NCBI RefSeq assembly: GCF_020251205.1
Contig: NZ_JAIWYX010000008.1
Location: 124,001-188,000, forward strand
Source of the DNA: Arthrobacter sp. M4
GTDB taxonomy: Bacteria > Actinomycetota > Actinomycetes > Actinomycetales > Micrococcaceae
Direction: 5' to 3'
Length of the DNA: 64,000 bases
In this document: positions 4,650 through 46,889 of the stretch, one piece after another
Numbering within the stretch: the stretch's first letter is position 1
Layout of the letters: each line of letters starts with the position of its first letter
The notes under the pieces: generated by a model
Databases searched by the model: none
Told to the model about the DNA's origin: nothing
Seen by the model: the letters and a program-made list of their open reading frames with translations, nothing else
Made by a program: the position numbers and the translations under genes

Positions 4650-4666
4650 TGGAACTTGCCTCGGGA

Positions 4667-4699
4667 GCCTCAAGCGGTCATGGGAAATCCGCTTGAGGC
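4667..4699 (+). terminator. Rho-independent terminator of the PadR/ABC operon
   Basis: GCCTCAAGCGG (4667-4677) and CCGCTTGAGGC (4689-4699) form an 11-bp stem, followed by a short T-rich stretch (TTCTTC). An overlapping alternative hairpin (GAGGCTT/AAGCCTC) lies directly downstream. Confidence 0.75.
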
Positions 4700-4736
4700 T
4701 TCTTCGGCTTAAGCCTCTGCTACTCTCTGTATTAGA

Positions 4737-4757
4737 ACGATTGTTTGAAACAATCGT
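4737..4757 (+). promoter_or_regulatory. TetR-type operator 1
   Basis: A 21-base palindrome: ACGATTGTTT, a central G, and AAACAATCGT. It lies about 80 bases ahead of the tetR-like gene, in keeping with autoregulation. Confidence 0.65.
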
Positions 4758-4785
4758 TTGAAGTCGATGCTGATACGAACATTCA

Positions 4786-4797
4786 GAACGATCGTTC
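4786..4797 (+). promoter_or_regulatory. TetR-type operator 2
   Basis: A perfect 12-bp palindrome GAACGATCGTTC, sharing the ACGAT/ATCGT half-site with the palindrome at 4737-4757. Two spaced related sites suggest cooperative binding of the adjacent TetR protein. Confidence 0.6.
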
Positions 4798-4836: not shown

Positions 4837-5715
4837 ATGACACAGGGACAGGACCAGCGGGTACGCGGATTCGAATCGAGGGAGAGGCTGCTGGCAGCCG
4901 CGCGGGAACTCATCCCGGAATTGGGCTGGAGTGGAGTGAGTGCCCGGCTTCTCGGGGATAGGGCCCGAGTTGCTGCTAGCGCGGCGCATTACCACTTTGG
5001 TTCGGTGCAGGGGGTGCTCGCCGAGGCAGCGATCGAGTCTCTTCGGGAAGCTGGGGCCGGCCTCGTCAAGCTCCTGGAATCATACGACGACCCCGCCGAC
5101 GGCCTGGCCGCGATGCTCTCTGCCCTGGACGCCCAGGACACGCTGGATGCCCATGAGGCCCAGGACCCACTGGACGCCCATGACGCCCAAGCCGCACTGG
5201 ACGCCCAAGCCGCACTGGACGCCCAAGCCGCACTGGACGCCCAAGCCGCACTGGACGCCCAAGCCGCCCTGGACGCCCATGACGCACTGGACGACCATGA
5301 CGCCCAAGCCGCACTGGACGACCATGACGCCCAAGCCGCATCGGACGCCCAAGACGCACACGCGCAAAGCAGTGTCGTCGCGGTGGAGCTCTATCTCGCG
5401 GCAGCCCGCGACCCCGCCCTTCGTGACAGGGTGGTTGCTCTGCTGGAAGAGTTCCGCGGCTGGCTAGCTGCGTGGCTCGCTGACAGGGGCCAACCCAACG
5501 CTGAGGTGGTCGCAGCGGTCCTTGCCGCGGCACTCGATGGCATCATGCTGCACCGGACCCTCGACTCGCGGGATCGAATTACAAGCTCTCCTGATGCAGC
5601 CGAAGTAAGAGGTACGGCACATGAAACCAGAAAGGGACCACTCAGTGCGGTATCCATCATCCCCATCCTCAATCGGCTGCTTGTTCCCGCGACAGGAATG
5701 GAGAAGGCGAAATGA
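4837..5715 (+). CDS. TetR/AcrR family regulator with an internal repeat insertion
   Basis: Repressor with a normal TetR DNA-binding domain (residues about 14-60, with the recognition helix around RARVAASAAHYHFGSVQGVL). Residues about 97-177 are an insertion of LDAQAA/LDAHDA-type six-residue repeats, after which a TetR-like C-terminal ligand domain resumes (VAVELYLAAARDPALRDRV). The protein is 292 residues against about 190-220 for the family; the insertion explains the excess. ATG at 4837 with GGGGGAAGG upstream is preferred to the TTG at 4801. Its stop overlaps the FAD monooxygenase start (ATGA), so it probably controls that gene. Confidence 0.85.
   Translation: MTQGQDQRVRGFESRERLLAAARELIPELGWSGVSARLLGDRARVAASAAHYHFGSVQGVLAEAAIESLREAGAGLVKLLESYDDPADGLAAMLSALDAQDTLDAHEAQDPLDAHDAQAALDAQAALDAQAALDAQAALDAQAALDAHDALDDHDAQAALDDHDAQAASDAQDAHAQSSVVAVELYLAAARDPALRDRVVALLEEFRGWLAAWLADRGQPNAEVVAAVLAAALDGIMLHRTLDSRDRITSSPDAAEVRGTAHETRKGPLSAVSIIPILNRLLVPATGMEKAK
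5124..5367 (+). repeat. 18-bp-based in-frame tandem repeat inside tetR
   Basis: Units of 18 bases such as GCCGCACTGGACGCCCAA are repeated, with nearly identical copies at the centre (about 5195-5270) and diverged copies on both sides. Some units carry GACCATGACGCC in place of GACGCCCAA. The frame is kept throughout. Confidence 0.92.
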
Positions 5716-6911
5716 GGGCGATCGTCGTCGGGGCCGGCATCGCGGGACTGGTGGCCGCCCGCCAGCTGGGGCTCGCCGGCTGGGAGGTGGACGTCGTGGA
5801 GCGCTCGCAGGCGCCGCGCCCCGACGGCTACATGATGGATTTCTTTGGCCCGGGCTACGCCGCGGCGGACACGATCGGCCTGCTTCCGCGGCTTCTGGAA
5901 ACGGCGTACCGAGTTGACTCAGCGGATTACATCGACTCCGAGGGACGGACAACAGCCCGTTTCGGCTACGAACAGTTCGCTCGTATAGCGGGAGGCAAGC
6001 TGCTCAGCCTGCTCCGCCCCGACGTCGAACTCGCCTGCGTTGCGGCGCTCGACGACGTCCCGTCCGGTCGTGTCAGGCTCCACTACGGCGCCACACCGGT
6101 GAGGATATGGGCCGACGACGGCGGTCCCGGCGTCGAGTTTTCAACGTCCCGGAACGGGCAGCAAGCCAAAATGACGCTGGAGGCGGACCTCCTGGTGGGA
6201 GCCGACGGAATCCACTCGGCGGTTAGGGCTGCGATTTTCGGCGCCGAGGAGCAATTTCTGCGGCCGCTCGGCATGCGGACGGCCGCGTACATCGTGCGGG
6301 ATCCTGACTTGGGGGAGCGTTTCGAGGGTCGCTTTATCCTCACGGACACCATCGATCGTCAGGTAGGGCTGTACACCTTGCGGGACGGGCGAACGGCGGC
6401 GTTCCTGGTGTATCGGGATTCCGACGGCGCCGCTGCGAACGGAACGCGCCAAAGGCTCCAGGACACCTTTGCCGGGATCGGGCCGATTGGCGAGGGACTG
6501 CTGGAGCTGTGTCCGGAGGACCCTTATGACGATGTAGTGGCGCAGGTTGCCATGCCCCAATGGCACAAGGGCCGGGCAGTGCTCATCGGCGATGCGTGCC
6601 AGGCGGTATCCCTGCTCGCGGGCCAGGGCGCTTCCCTCGCCGTCGCGGGGGCGGCACTGTTGGCCGACGTCCTCCAACCCCTGCCGGAAGGCGCGTCCAG
6701 CCGCGAGATCGAAGCGGCCCTCGACGACTACCAGCAACAGTGGCGGCCCATCGTGGAGGAAACCCAGGCGGTGGGACGGCGTGCGGCGTCGTCGTTCCTT
6801 CCCGCCAGCCGGATCCAGCTTCTTGCGCGGCGCTGGACGCTCCGACTCTCCGGGCTGCCCGGCATAGACCGCATCCTGGCGCGCCAGATCGTCGGCCGGC
6901 TGGTTAAATAG
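5712..6911 (+). CDS. FAD-dependent monooxygenase (PHBH/TetX-like)
   Basis: Aromatic or antibiotic hydroxylase of the group A flavoprotein family, 399 residues. The N-terminal Rossmann motif is GAGIAG (residues 7-12). The middle DG motif reads LLVGADGIHS, and the FAD-binding GD motif reads LIGDACQAVSLLAGQGAS. It overlaps tetR by four bases, so the two form an operon. Its position beside a drug-type ABC exporter suggests a role in modifying a xenobiotic or antibiotic, but the substrate cannot be told from sequence. A long perfect hairpin follows the stop. Confidence 0.9.
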   Translation: MRAIVVGAGIAGLVAARQLGLAGWEVDVVERSQAPRPDGYMMDFFGPGYAAADTIGLLPRLLETAYRVDSADYIDSEGRTTARFGYEQFARIAGGKLLSLLRPDVELACVAALDDVPSGRVRLHYGATPVRIWADDGGPGVEFSTSRNGQQAKMTLEADLLVGADGIHSAVRAAIFGAEEQFLRPLGMRTAAYIVRDPDLGERFEGRFILTDTIDRQVGLYTLRDGRTAAFLVYRDSDGAAANGTRQRLQDTFAGIGPIGEGLLELCPEDPYDDVVAQVAMPQWHKGRAVLIGDACQAVSLLAGQGASLAVAGAALLADVLQPLPEGASSREIEAALDDYQQQWRPIVEETQAVGRRAASSFLPASRIQLLARRWTLRLSGLPGIDRILARQIVGRLVK

Positions 6912-6915
6912 TGCG

Positions 6916-6946
6916 GCCGTCGTCGGGCTCTGAGCCCGACGACGGC
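6916..6946 (+). terminator. Perfect 13-15-bp hairpin after the monooxygenase gene
   Basis: GCCGTCGTCGGGC (6916-6928) pairs with GCCCGACGACGGC (6934-6946). It lacks a clear T-run (TTGCGTT follows) but lies immediately after the stop, so it is a likely terminator. Confidence 0.6.
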
Positions 6947-7109
6947 TTGCGTTAGGTACGACGTCGGCGCGCCCGGGCGGCGGCTAGCTCGACGGCGGCT
7001 TGCGTTAGGTACGACGTCCGCGGGGCCGGGAGGCCGCTAGCTCGACGGCGGCGGGCCCGGGCGGCGGCTAGCTCGACGGCGTGCCGGGGCGGCGGCTAGC
7101 TCGACGGCG
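6945..7109 (+). repeat. Tandem repeats anchored on the stop codon of the DUF5684 gene
   Basis: CTAGCTCGACGGCG occurs at 6984, 7037, 7068 and 7096. The copy at 7096 is the reverse complement of the real 3' end of the minus-strand gene, including its TAG. A larger 53-bp unit (starting TTGCGTTAGGTACGACGTC) is duplicated at 6948 and 7001. Spacings are 53, 31 and 28 bases. Confidence 0.88.
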
Positions 7110-7695
7110 GCGTGGGGTTATGCGGGTTGTTGCTGTACGGCTGCTGGCCATACGGCTGCTGGGGCTGCTGCCCGTAGGGCTGGGGCGGGTACGGCTGCTG
7201 GGGCTGCTGCCCGTAGGGCTGGGGAGGGTAGGGCTGCTGATAAGGCTGCTGTGGGTATGGTGCGTTGCCGTAGCCAGGCCCATATTGAGGCTGCTGCCAG
7301 GCCGCGGCCGGGCCCAGGTAACGCGCGGAGCCGTAGGACAGCATGGGGACGAAGACGATGGGGAGCAGGACCAGGCCTACCGTGTAGCCCGAATCCTTGC
7401 CGAAAGATTTGGCGAGGTCGTTCAAAACGATGATGGCAAACACGATGTTGACGAACGGAATCAACAAAAAGAGGAACCAGTATCCGGGCCGTCCCGCGAT
7501 CTGCACCAGTCGGAAACCGTTATAGAACGGGACGAATGCTTCCCACGCCGGGCGGCCCGCTTTGGTGAAGATGCCCATGTAGAGAAGGCCGACGATTCCG
7601 AAGATCACCACAAAGTAGATCAGCATAAAGCCGAAGACCGCGGCAGCCGTGGCGCCGCTGTCGTAGTAGTCGTACCTGCCCAGAAGAATGTCCAT
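7096..7695 (-). CDS. DUF5684 domain-containing membrane protein with a PQQPY-rich tail
   Basis: A 199-residue protein with about four membrane helices (residues about 18-115) and the DUF5684 signature FTKAGRPAWEAFVPFYNGF then LVQIAGRPGYWFLFL. The last 70 residues are a Pro/Gln/Tyr-rich tail with repeated PYPPQPYGQQPQQ units, as in many actinobacterial envelope proteins. Function is unknown; family members are often annotated as signal-peptidase-like neighbours or plain membrane proteins. The coding end is duplicated downstream in the repeat block. Confidence 0.8.
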   Translation of the reverse strand: MDILLGRYDYYDSGATAAAVFGFMLIYFVVIFGIVGLLYMGIFTKAGRPAWEAFVPFYNGFRLVQIAGRPGYWFLFLLIPFVNIVFAIIVLNDLAKSFGKDSGYTVGLVLLPIVFVPMLSYGSARYLGPAAAWQQPQYGPGYGNAPYPQQPYQQPYPPQPYGQQPQQPYPPQPYGQQPQQPYGQQPYSNNPHNPTPPSS

Positions 7696-11950: not shown

Positions 11951-12000
11951 GGCGGGGACAGTTAGCGTCGCCTAGTCGATGCCGCCGTCGCGCTTGCCGC

Positions 12001-12192
12001 CGTTTAGTACCTGCCGCCGTCGGGCCTGCCGCCGTTTAGTCCCTGCCGCGGTCACGCCTGCCGCCGTCGTGCCGGCAGCCGTTTACTCCTTGCCGCCGTC
12101 GCGCCGGCCGCCGTTTAGTCCCCGCCGCGGTCACACCTGCCGCCGTCGTGCAGGCAGCCGTTTACTCCTTGCCGCCGTCGCGCCGGCCGTCC
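12001..12192 (+). repeat. 79-bp tandem duplication spanning the stop of the YihY gene
   Basis: TTTAGTCC recurs at 12035 and 12114, and TTTACTCC at 12083 and 12162, both exactly 79 bases apart. The second copy overlaps the last coding bases of the minus-strand YihY gene, whose TAA is the complement of TTA at 12162-12164. A partial third copy begins at 12003. Sub-units of TGCCGCCGT recur inside the repeat. Confidence 0.88.
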
Positions 12193-22098: not shown

Positions 22099-22176
22099 CG
22101 GCTGTTGGCGCCCGCAAGGTTTCGACGGCGGCTGGTGGGCTCCGCTGCTCGGTTTGCCGAGCGGGTCGGTCTGTCC

Positions 22177-22336
22177 GGCTGGTGAGCGGACTGCGGAGGA
22201 TCTACCGGTTTCTACCGGCTGGTGAGCGGACTGCGGAGGATCTACCGGTTTCTACCGGCTGGTGAGCGGACCGCGGATGATCTACCGGTTTCTACCGGCT
22301 GGTGAGCGGACTGCGGATGATCTACCGGTTTCTACC
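22177..22336 (+). repeat. 40-bp tandem repeat, four copies, at the 3' end of the sulfurtransferase gene
   Basis: GGCTGGTGAGCGGA recurs at 22177, 22217, 22257 and 22297, exactly 40 bases apart. Units differ by single bases only. Each holds a small hairpin CCGGT-TTCT-ACCGG. The last 1.3 units are inside the coding region of the minus-strand gene, whose TAG (22282-22284) is within the repeat. Because 40 is not a multiple of 3, each unit is read in a different frame. Confidence 0.95.
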
Positions 22337-23172
22337 GGCCGATCCAGTGCGTGGCCATACTGCGACCAGCCGCCGACATACAACAGGCCGCGGCCCAGGC
22401 CGACATGTTCCATGGTCAGCAGGTTGTGGCATGCCGTGACCCCGGAACCGCAATAGGAGATGACCTTTTCAGCGGAGTCGATTCCCGCGGCCGCGAAGGC
22501 CTGGAGGATCTCCTCGGTGTTCTTGATTCGTCCAGAGGGCTCCAAGTTGGCGCGGCATGGCACGTTCACCGCGCCCGGGATGTGGCCTGGACGCGGATCG
22601 ATTGGGTCCTGACGACCCTCAAAGCGGTCCGCGTTCCGGGCATCAGCAACTGTGACTCCCGGGAGGGCTAGTTCGTCGATGCCGGCCAGCATGGAATCCG
22701 GCCAAGGGGCAGCTTTGAACATGGCTGGCTGTGTGGCTGGTTCGACCGCTGGCTCGGCCAACGGTCCAGGGCCGGATTCCAACGGGCCCGCCCAAGCTGC
22801 CATGCCGCCGTCGAGCACTGCCGCCTGGTGGCCGGTGACGCGGAGCATCCATACCAAGCGGGCGGCGATAACGCCGCCGGCGTCGTCGTAGGCGACCACC
22901 GGGGTGTGGTTGGAAATGCCCAGGGACGTCATGCCTTCGGCGAAAACGCCTGGAGCGGGCAGGGGGTTGCGGCCCGTTTCGGGGCTGCCGGGTCCGGAGA
23001 GCCACTGGTCGAGGTCCACAAACACAGCGCCGGGCAGGTGACCGGCTTCGAAGGCTTCGCGGCCGGAACTGCCGTCCAAGTACCAACGGGCGTCGGCGAC
23101 GACCACCTCGGAGTGGTGGGCAGCGAGCCACTGTGCGCTGACGAACGGGGGAAGGGTCACGACGTCATTCAT
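22282..23172 (-). CDS. sseA: Sulfurtransferase (thiosulfate/3-mercaptopyruvate sulfurtransferase)
   Basis: A 296-residue tandem-rhodanese protein that transfers sulfane sulfur. The N-terminal inactive domain carries VVVADARWYLDGSSG. The C-terminal domain has the active loop SYCGSGVTACH with Cys241; CGSGVTA is the 3-mercaptopyruvate-type loop. The final ~19 residues (RPVETGRSSAVRSPAGRNR) are coded by the 40-bp repeat and are likely non-conserved. The start MNDVVTLPPF is well placed. Confidence 0.9.
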   Translation of the reverse strand: MNDVVTLPPFVSAQWLAAHHSEVVVADARWYLDGSSGREAFEAGHLPGAVFVDLDQWLSGPGSPETGRNPLPAPGVFAEGMTSLGISNHTPVVAYDDAGGVIAARLVWMLRVTGHQAAVLDGGMAAWAGPLESGPGPLAEPAVEPATQPAMFKAAPWPDSMLAGIDELALPGVTVADARNADRFEGRQDPIDPRPGHIPGAVNVPCRANLEPSGRIKNTEEILQAFAAAGIDSAEKVISYCGSGVTACHNLLTMEHVGLGRGLLYVGGWSQYGHALDRPVETGRSSAVRSPAGRNR

Positions 23173-44420: not shown

Positions 44421-45517
44421 CGGGCGAAACCGCGATCCACACCACGGGGCTGAGCAAGCGCTTCGGCCACCAACTGGCCGTGGACGGGCTCAACCTCAGC
44501 GTTCCGGTGGGGTCGGTGTTCGGCTTCCTGGGTCCCAACGGCTCTGGAAAAACCACCACTATCCGCATGCTCTTGGGCCTTGCCTCTGCGAGCTCGGGGT
44601 CGATTTCCGTGCTTGGCCGGGAGATGCCTAATGGATTGCACGACGTCCTTCCGCGCGTGGGTGCCCTCGTGGAAGGGCCGGCTTTCTATCCCTTCCTCTC
44701 AGGGGCCGCCAATCTTCACAGGCTGGACACCGCCAACCGGCTCGCTTCCGCCAGAACACGCCGCGACAGAGTCAACCATGCACTGGAGCGCGTGGGCCTC
44801 TCCCATGCGGCGCACAAGAAGGTCAAGGCGTATTCGCTGGGCATGAAGCAGCGGCTGGGCATCGCAAACGCCTTGCTAAGCCCTCGCGAGCTGCTGGTCC
44901 TCGACGAGCCCACCAACGGCCTGGACCCGCAAGGAACGCGCGAGGTCCGCCACCTCATCCGCTCGCTCGCGGCCGGCGGCACCACGGTGTTCGTTTCCAG
45001 CCACTTGCTGGCGGAGGTCGAGCAGATTTGCTCCCACGTTGCCGTGATGCGCACCGGCCGATTGGTGGCCCAGGGGACGCTTGCGGAACTGCGGCGCAAC
45101 GGCGCCAGGCGTGTGCGGATTGTCACCCCGGACCCGGGCATCGCCGCGGAAGTTCTTATTCGGCTGGGTCTGCTGCCCACCCCGGAACCCCCGGAAGGCA
45201 CCGACGCCGTCCTCACCGCAATGCTCCCGGCTGAGAGTCCCGTTGGCGGCAACTACGACGGCGGCAACGGCGCAGTTTCCGGTGACCGGGATGCCAATGA
45301 CAGGGGATCCAGCGGCCCGGTGAGCGACGACTCCATCACCGGCGGCTCGAGCACAAAAGACACAGCGGGCTGGGGGGCTTCAACCATGTTGCCGGAGTCC
45401 GTGGCGGAGGCTTTGGTTCGCTCGGACGTTCGGCTTCGTGGCTTCGCTGTGGTTGTGGGGAGCCTGGAGGATCGTTTCGTAGCACTTACGGGGGAGGGGT
45501 TCGACGTTGACCAGTGA
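44417..45517 (+). CDS. ABC transporter ATP-binding protein
   Basis: A 366-residue ATPase of the ABC-2 exporter class. Walker A GPNGSGKTT (residues 39-47), signature YSLGMKQRLGIA and Walker B LLVLDEPTNGLD are clear. The 130 residues after the domain are a Gly/Ser/Asp-rich, poorly ordered stretch (GGNYDGGNGAVSGDRDANDR), ending in a folded end piece (RGFAVVVGSLEDRFVALTG). GTG start overlaps the upstream gene; the stop region overlaps the permease start. Confidence 0.9.
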   Translation: MTGETAIHTTGLSKRFGHQLAVDGLNLSVPVGSVFGFLGPNGSGKTTTIRMLLGLASASSGSISVLGREMPNGLHDVLPRVGALVEGPAFYPFLSGAANLHRLDTANRLASARTRRDRVNHALERVGLSHAAHKKVKAYSLGMKQRLGIANALLSPRELLVLDEPTNGLDPQGTREVRHLIRSLAAGGTTVFVSSHLLAEVEQICSHVAVMRTGRLVAQGTLAELRRNGARRVRIVTPDPGIAAEVLIRLGLLPTPEPPEGTDAVLTAMLPAESPVGGNYDGGNGAVSGDRDANDRGSSGPVSDDSITGGSSTKDTAGWGASTMLPESVAEALVRSDVRLRGFAVVVGSLEDRFVALTGEGFDVDQ

Positions 45518-46889
45518 CGTCACGCAACCAGACGGCGCGGCTGCCGCTGTTCCAGGACCGCCTGCAATGCCCAAGCGGCCCGCCATTCCCGGGCGCCTAT
45601 TGCGGCCCGCTCGCGATAAACAGCTTGCCAGGACTGAATCTCTTGCCGGGACCGAATCTCTTGCGGGGTCGGAACAGTTCGCCCGAACGGAGCCGGCCAC
45701 CCCGACTGAACCGACAACCCGGACTGAACCGACAACCCCGACTGAACCGACAACGCGGACTGAACCGACAACCCCGACTGAATCGACAACCCGGACTGAA
45801 CCGACAACCCGGACTGAACCGACAACGCGGACTGAACCGACAACGCGGACTGAACCGACAACGCGGACTGAACCGACAACCCGGACTGAACCGACAACCC
45901 GGACTGAACCGACAACCCGGCCGGAGTCCGCAGCCAAGGTCGAGCCGCCGTCGTTGGCTTTTTCGGTCCCTTTGGCAGCAGCGGGTGCGGCGGCCGCCGG
46001 CACGGGTACAACTGGCATCCCGGCACCAGTCACTGCGGGAACCAAGGTCCCCGGCCGCTCTGCATCCGCCACCGGGGCAGGGTGGGACCTCATGTGGTCC
46101 GAGCTCGGCGTGCTGTTCCGCCGCCGTCGGACCTGGGCCATGCTGGTCGCCCTCGCGATGATCCCAATCCTGATTGCGCTCGCCGTAAAACTCACATCCA
46201 GGGTTCCCAGTGGTCGCGGACCCGCCTTCCTGGACCGCATTGCAGAGAACGGGCTTTTCGCCGCGGTCACGGGCCTGATTGTGTCGATCCCGTTGTTCCT
46301 CCCCTTGACCGTGGGGGTGGTCGCCGGCGATACGGTGGCTGGCGAAGCCGGGCTCGGCACGCTGAGGTACCTGCTGGCCGCGCCCGCCGGTCGAGTTCGA
46401 TTGCTGCTGGTGAAGTACACCGGGGCCGTGGTCTTTTGCATCACGGCTACGTTGACTGTGGCCGCCGCGGGCATGGCGATCGGGGCGGTGCTGTTCCGGG
46501 TGGGTCCTGTCACGCTCCTCTCCGGCGACACCATCGGCGTCCCAGAGTCGATACTGCGCGTCCTCTCTATCGCCGCTTACGTCACCGTGTCGCTGCTAGG
46601 GCTGTCCGCCGTCGGGCTTTTCCTGTCGACGCTCACCGACGTGCCGGTTGGCGCGATGGCCGCAACGGTGGTGACCGCCGTCGTCTCTGAGGTGATGGAC
46701 GCTATTCCGCAACTCGACTGGCTGCATCCCTGGTTGCTGAGCCACTTCTGGCTGGACTTCGCCGACCTGCTTCGGCAGCCGCTGTCGTGGGAGTCTTTCG
46801 GCAATAACGCGTTGCTGCAGGCCGCGTATGTCGCAGTGTTTGGCGCCTTGGCCTACGGCCGCTTCGCCACCAAGGACGTCCTGGCCTGA
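45507..46889 (+). CDS. ABC-2 type permease with a TEPTTR-repeat N-terminus
   Basis: A 460-residue permease. The C-terminal 270 residues hold six helices of an ABC-2 permease (RRRRTWAMLVALAMIPILIA; VTGLIVSIPLFLPLTVGVVA). Residues about 60-140 are a run of TEPTTR/TEPTTP hexapeptides coded by an 18-bp repeat, placed before the first helix and so most likely cytoplasmic. TTG at 45507 overlaps the ATPase gene by 11 bases. It works with the ATPase and perhaps the LolA-like protein. Confidence 0.88.
   Translation: MTSDVTQPDGAAAAVPGPPAMPKRPAIPGRLLRPARDKQLARTESLAGTESLAGSEQFARTEPATPTEPTTRTEPTTPTEPTTRTEPTTPTESTTRTEPTTRTEPTTRTEPTTRTEPTTRTEPTTRTEPTTRTEPTTRPESAAKVEPPSLAFSVPLAAAGAAAAGTGTTGIPAPVTAGTKVPGRSASATGAGWDLMWSELGVLFRRRRTWAMLVALAMIPILIALAVKLTSRVPSGRGPAFLDRIAENGLFAAVTGLIVSIPLFLPLTVGVVAGDTVAGEAGLGTLRYLLAAPAGRVRLLLVKYTGAVVFCITATLTVAAAGMAIGAVLFRVGPVTLLSGDTIGVPESILRVLSIAAYVTVSLLGLSAVGLFLSTLTDVPVGAMAATVVTAVVSEVMDAIPQLDWLHPWLLSHFWLDFADLLRQPLSWESFGNNALLQAAYVAVFGALAYGRFATKDVLA
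45687..45925 (+). repeat. 18-bp in-frame tandem repeat in the permease gene
   Basis: About 13 copies of units like ACTGAACCGACAACCCGG, coding TEPTTR with TEPTTP/TESTTR variants. The inner copies are nearly identical. On the other strand the same DNA would read VVGSVR, but that frame has no gene context. Confidence 0.93.

Follow-up and report, generated by a model that had tools for sequence, protein, structure and literature searches.

Genes and regulatory features of the locus

The analyzed stretch of DNA (64,000 nucleotides, hereafter the window) corresponds to C88:124001-188000, contig C88 of Arthrobacter sp. M4 having a length of 318159 bases. Positions 4837-5715 (+) encode a TetR-family regulator of 292 aa, whose start codon at 4837 is supported by the collinear N-termini of homologous proteins. 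Two Pfam domains were identified above their gathering scores: TetR_N (PF00440; residues 18-63, 29.1 bits versus a cut-off of 24), which constitutes the N-terminal helix-turn-helix, and TetR_C_31 (PF17940; residues 170-258, 50.3 versus 27.4), matching from profile position 16 on. The latter match, the helical predicted model and the Foldseek matches to TetR structures (see below) all indicate an all-helical C-terminal ligand/dimerisation domain.

The stop codon of the regulator gene overlaps by 4 bp (ATGA) the start of a gene for a 399-aa FAD-dependent monooxygenase (5712-6911, +; FAD_binding_3). The downstream monooxygenase proposed in an earlier note on this DNA is supported. The best NCBIfam model of the enzyme is PRK07588, with a score below cut-off. 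Its identification as a tetracycline destructase was rejected (NF033476, 117.3 bits versus a cut-off of 550). Upstream of the regulator lie genes of an ABC transporter, whose best models are DrrA/DrrB-like (also below the NCBIfam cut-offs), and the permease gene is followed on its 3' side by an inverted repeat with perfect 12-bp arms (4666-4700, +), a possible terminator. A scan for consensus promoters and terminators found none.

The two palindromes previously noticed upstream of tetR were both found to be perfect. The first (4736-4758, 23 bp) has 11-bp arms separated by a 1-bp spacer, the second (4786-4797) is 12 bp long, and they have in common the half-sites AACGAT/ATCGTT. Allowing up to one mismatch, 0.05 matches to the 23-bp pattern and 0.14 to the 12-bp pattern would be expected by chance in the window. 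In the whole genome the 23-bp palindrome has no second copy at up to 2 mismatches, while the 12-bp palindrome, extended by one flanking base on each side, has no second exact copy and two copies at 1 mismatch. The lack of another exact genomic copy of either palindrome fits local autoregulation by TetR through these putative operators.

An in-frame minisatellite in the regulator gene

The regulator gene contains a tandem array (5125-5358, +) of 234 bp, i.e. 13 units of 18 bp or 78 codons, which encodes LDAQAA-type (DAQAAL-type) hexapeptides and displays a 9-bp substructure. TRF reported it as two overlapping calls: 5125-5359 (period 36, score 218) and 5182-5359 (period 18, score 209). The identity of the array with itself is 0.78 at offset 18, 0.73 at offset 27 and 0.60 at offset 9; when the same codons were shuffled 2000 times, the best offset between 9 and 39 never gave more than 0.58. 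The repeat is therefore genuine, and its head-to-tail units, above chance and in a reading frame uninterrupted across the whole array, identify it as a coding minisatellite.

Three identical 18-bp units are present at 5197, 5215 and 5233, and the next one differs by a single base, as expected from the earlier observation of near-identical inner copies. A 27-bp unit occurs in two identical consecutive copies (5287-5313 and 5314-5340), and the longest exact self-repeat within the array is 68 bp. Recent growth of the array, as judged from the near-identical inner units, is plausible. Differences at offset 18 are distributed over codon positions 1, 2 and 3 as 4, 18 and 25, respectively, which indicates that many of the changes are not silent. 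Two further long open frames overlie the array (5066-5533, -, and 4940-5467, +); they are probably by-products of the repeat periodicity and not genes.

Repeat-free homologues define the empty site

Searches for related regulators were performed in 395 genomes of the family, a sample of a larger group, and identified three genomes from a different genus (G382, G344 and G394) with clear homologues. In each case the match was interrupted at the array (query residues up to 99, then from 180). When the N-terminal part of TetR was used as a protein query, no relative was detected in the named genomes; an alignment query then gave five, in a Chloroflexota MAG, Mycolicibacterium xanthum, Saccharopolyspora elongata, Arthrobacter sp. 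SF27 and VKM Ac-2550. The last two were counted as G344 and G394, which brings the number of distinct homologues to six (three Arthrobacter-type, one each from Mycolicibacterium, Saccharopolyspora and the Chloroflexota MAG). All six lack the array, as do the more distant TetRs of G231 and G028.

The homologues align on either side of the array, and in both alignments (A1 and A2) each shows a net gap of 72 aa relative to the array-bearing protein, a length of exactly 12 units; the exact position of the gap shifts by a few residues between the two. In the predicted structure, this gap corresponds to the loop that joins helices 5 and 6. The expansion by an 18-bp unit reported earlier thus proved correct and in frame, although its size, given as about 80 residues, has to be corrected to a net insertion of 72 aa within an array of 78 aa. 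Its placement between the DNA-binding and ligand domains was not upheld, since the alignment, the model and the TetR_C_31 match locate the array inside the ligand domain.

The helix 5-6 loop of two homologues reads SALDAITGTDAASLLF and SRLDAYDGMDAASLLF, which suggests that the array grew from a single native unit of LDA type. The corresponding loop at locus L117 is similar to the edges of the array.

Within the genus, the TetR matches from a protein search of the other 205 genomes were all distant and partial, with E 1.5e-7 at best, and a DNA search of the same genomes detected no orthologous array. The array DNA had matches at E 0.001 in 16 of the 206 genus genomes, its own included. The best of these outside the own genome (G089) falls within an amidohydrolase-like ORF that is unrelated and has 9-bp repeats of DAR type. 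This ORF (L076, 1414-3117) carries a DARDARDAR...DAENPQDAGDAQ repeat, in which a similar DAx motif has apparently expanded in frame independently. The possibility of a mobile or dispersed repeat was rejected, since in its own genome the unit matched the array and five further stretches, all of them weak and 17-29 bp long.

Pairing of the regulator and the monooxygenase

A homologous monooxygenase gene lies directly downstream of the tetR homologue in all three Arthrobacter-type loci L110-L112 and in four of the five loci L117-L121 (L117 being the exception); L120 and L121 were treated as genomes of L111 and L112. In Arthrobacter sp. SF27, VKM Ac-2550, M. xanthum and S. elongata, the gene order and the homologous proteins are the same as here but the regulator is free of the repeat, and the 4-bp overlap is found in the Arthrobacter and Mycolicibacterium loci as well. 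The palindrome upstream of tetR in L110-L112 differs from those described above. Relatives of the monooxygenase (E 1e-60 or better) were detected in 37 of the other 205 genus genomes, the best with 64% identity. In contrast to the loci L110-L112 and L118-L121, none of 29 congener monooxygenase loci (of 41 congener matches) had a relative of the array-bearing TetR within approximately 1.5 kb. The pair thus recurs across genera and not in the congener loci examined, and its arrangement is an ordinary one, recurrent in other genera.

Predicted structure and properties of the insert

An AlphaFold2 model of the regulator, built on alignment A2 (6 sequences; mean pLDDT 77.5, pTM 0.63), retains the TetR helices. 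The insert is modelled as a helix (residues 115-147) followed by a second one (155-191) that continues into native helix 6. Block pLDDT values over the insert range from 43 to 84, with residues 102-112 and 149-154 below 50; with a value of 84 for residues 121-140, some of the insert may adopt an ordered structure. Ala-rich repeats are readily predicted as helical, and for this reason little weight is placed on the predicted helical hairpin.

The best Foldseek matches of the model are TetR structures, the first being 2dg8 (four chains; TM-scores 0.46-0.50 by query and 0.74-0.80 by target). This chain, SCO7518, is the nearest solved structure, and the regulator has both Pfam domains and the predicted fold in common with TetR_C_31-type repressors. 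It differs from them in the 72-aa low-complexity expansion of the helix 5-6 loop and in a shorter extra stretch on the C-terminal side, which the homologue alignment identifies as approximately 23 non-repetitive residues near the C-terminus.

The array segment (residues 99-176) has a net charge of -20, and the pI of the protein is 4.57 versus 4.94-8.88 among the A2 homologues. An amphipathic face is absent from the regular units, whose hydrophobic moment is 0.00; this speaks against a surface evolved for packing. Given this value, and at most 0.25 elsewhere (0.25 and 0.18 in two windows of the second half), a coiled-coil arm was rejected.

Repeat content of the contig and the genome

TRF was used to compare tandem repeats between the own genome (864 kb sampled) and five congeners (1.2 Mb). 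The overall density of distinct arrays was about equal: 115 in the own genome (13.3 per 100 kb) versus 149 in the congeners (12.4). In tests that ignore the non-random sampling, and with the window excluded, the own genome had more arrays scoring at least 100 (32 in 800 kb versus 23 in 1.2 Mb, p = 0.008), a larger share of period-18 arrays (22 of 103 versus 16 of 149, p = 0.03) and three long arrays, defined by 4 or more copies, a score of 130 or more and a period of no more than 60 (one of the three has period 8), versus none in the congeners (p = 0.06). Within the own genome, and under the same conditions, C88 carried 20 arrays with scores of 100 or above in 240 kb, versus 12 in the other 560 kb sampled (binomial p = 0.00015). 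Array density reached 18.8 per 100 kb over 304 kb of C88 versus 10.4 in the 560 kb of other contigs. Outside C88 the sampled part of the genome is not richer than the congeners, either in all arrays (10.4 versus 12.4 per 100 kb) or in those scoring at least 100 (12 in 560 kb versus 23 in 1.2 Mb). The view of the whole genome as minisatellite-rich was therefore rejected, the enrichment in the sampled DNA being confined to C88.

Several further arrays were observed in the window. The one at 45699-45920 is an 18-bp in-frame array of 12.3 copies (94% identical, RTEPTT-type), more regular than that in tetR, and occupies an N-terminal portion of an ORF resembling ABC-2 permeases (45507-46889, +). 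At 22175-22339 there is a 40-bp array of 4.1 copies (97% identical), over the full length of which no frame is open, and GC-rich arrays with periods of approximately 79 bp and 53/31 bp occur at 11980-12189 and 6933-7112, respectively. The presence of arrays in open frames of unrelated ORFs of the same genome favours a mutational cause.

Origin of the array

The most probable explanation (approximately 0.72) is that an 18-bp minisatellite was expanded by slippage from a native loop within an ordinary TetR-monooxygenase regulator, and has been tolerated. The starting state would have been a conventional local regulator of a co-transcribed FAD monooxygenase, the helix 5-6 loop of which already contained one LDA-type unit, as in the two repeat-free homologues. 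This unit may have been duplicated by slipped-strand replication or unequal crossing-over in steps of 9, 18 and 27 bp, which, as multiples of three, keep the reading frame. The product would be an acidic, Ala-rich, predicted-helical segment within a ligand domain whose flanking halves are both still homologous to normal TetRs. Such a protein would presumably repress the tetR-monooxygenase transcript and respond to a substrate-like inducer. Slippage is the mechanism of growth that we infer, together with near-neutral tolerance of the array by the protein. Most likely, the array reflects a repeat-rich stretch of the genome rather than a tuning device. Against this reading, the sampled genome outside C88 has no more arrays than the congeners, the pLDDT of 84 may point to partial order in the insert, two windows of the second half of the array have moments of 0.25 and 0.18, and the segment retains an acidic composition that favours helices. 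Since the repeat richness is a property of C88 and not of the genome, we give tolerance slightly less weight, and decay of the regulator slightly more.

Under such decay, which we consider unlikely, the array and the C-terminal-side stretch of approximately 23 aa would be signs of relaxed selection, the repressor having lost its ability to fold or bind, with the monooxygenase expressed constitutively or driven otherwise. The second extra stretch near the C-terminus would agree with this, as would the recognition-helix region, which reads RVAASAA versus GVxP in four of the five A2 homologues, and the 29 congener loci indicate that the enzyme manages without this TetR. However, the frame is fully open, both Pfam domains score above gathering thresholds, the overlap with the monooxygenase gene is intact and the upstream palindromes are perfect.

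There is still less reason to regard the array as a contingency element, in which cells with changed unit numbers would come to differ in repressor affinity or induction, and hence in monooxygenase expression. The near-identical inner units and the 68-bp exact self-repeat do make length change likely, and the insert adds 20 net negative charges per monomer within the ligand domain. Nevertheless, no orthologue was found in the other 205 genus genomes and no length variation was seen, the unit steps are all in frame and would give no on/off switching, and similar arrays occur in unrelated ORFs of the same genome.

It is very improbable that the insert acts as an acidic helical arm of adjustable length (net -20 per monomer), lowering operator affinity proportionally to the number of units through electrostatics or docking onto the DNA-binding domains; if it did, slippage would set the level of monooxygenase expression in 6-residue steps. 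Tuning by repeat length is conceivable, but it is not favoured. A contribution of assembly error to the array length, which a draft genome of 96 contigs might suggest, is scarcely credible, as the longest exact self-repeat (68 bp) is below ordinary short-read length and many units are told apart by diagnostic substitutions.

The array resembles other bacterial coding minisatellites (period a multiple of three), in which tandem units encode amino-acid repeats, and differs from them in its host, a small TetR regulator. A limited search of the literature, covering its sources in part, found no report of a TetR with a coding minisatellite. The locus provides a clean example of a coding minisatellite grown from an apparent native loop in a small, tightly folded regulator, with the empty site defined by repeat-free homologues. 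If array length affected induction, this would be a graded contingency mechanism and not an on/off one. At present the array serves chiefly to exemplify a contig rich in repeats, and it offers a test of the amount of extra sequence that can be accommodated in a TetR ligand domain.
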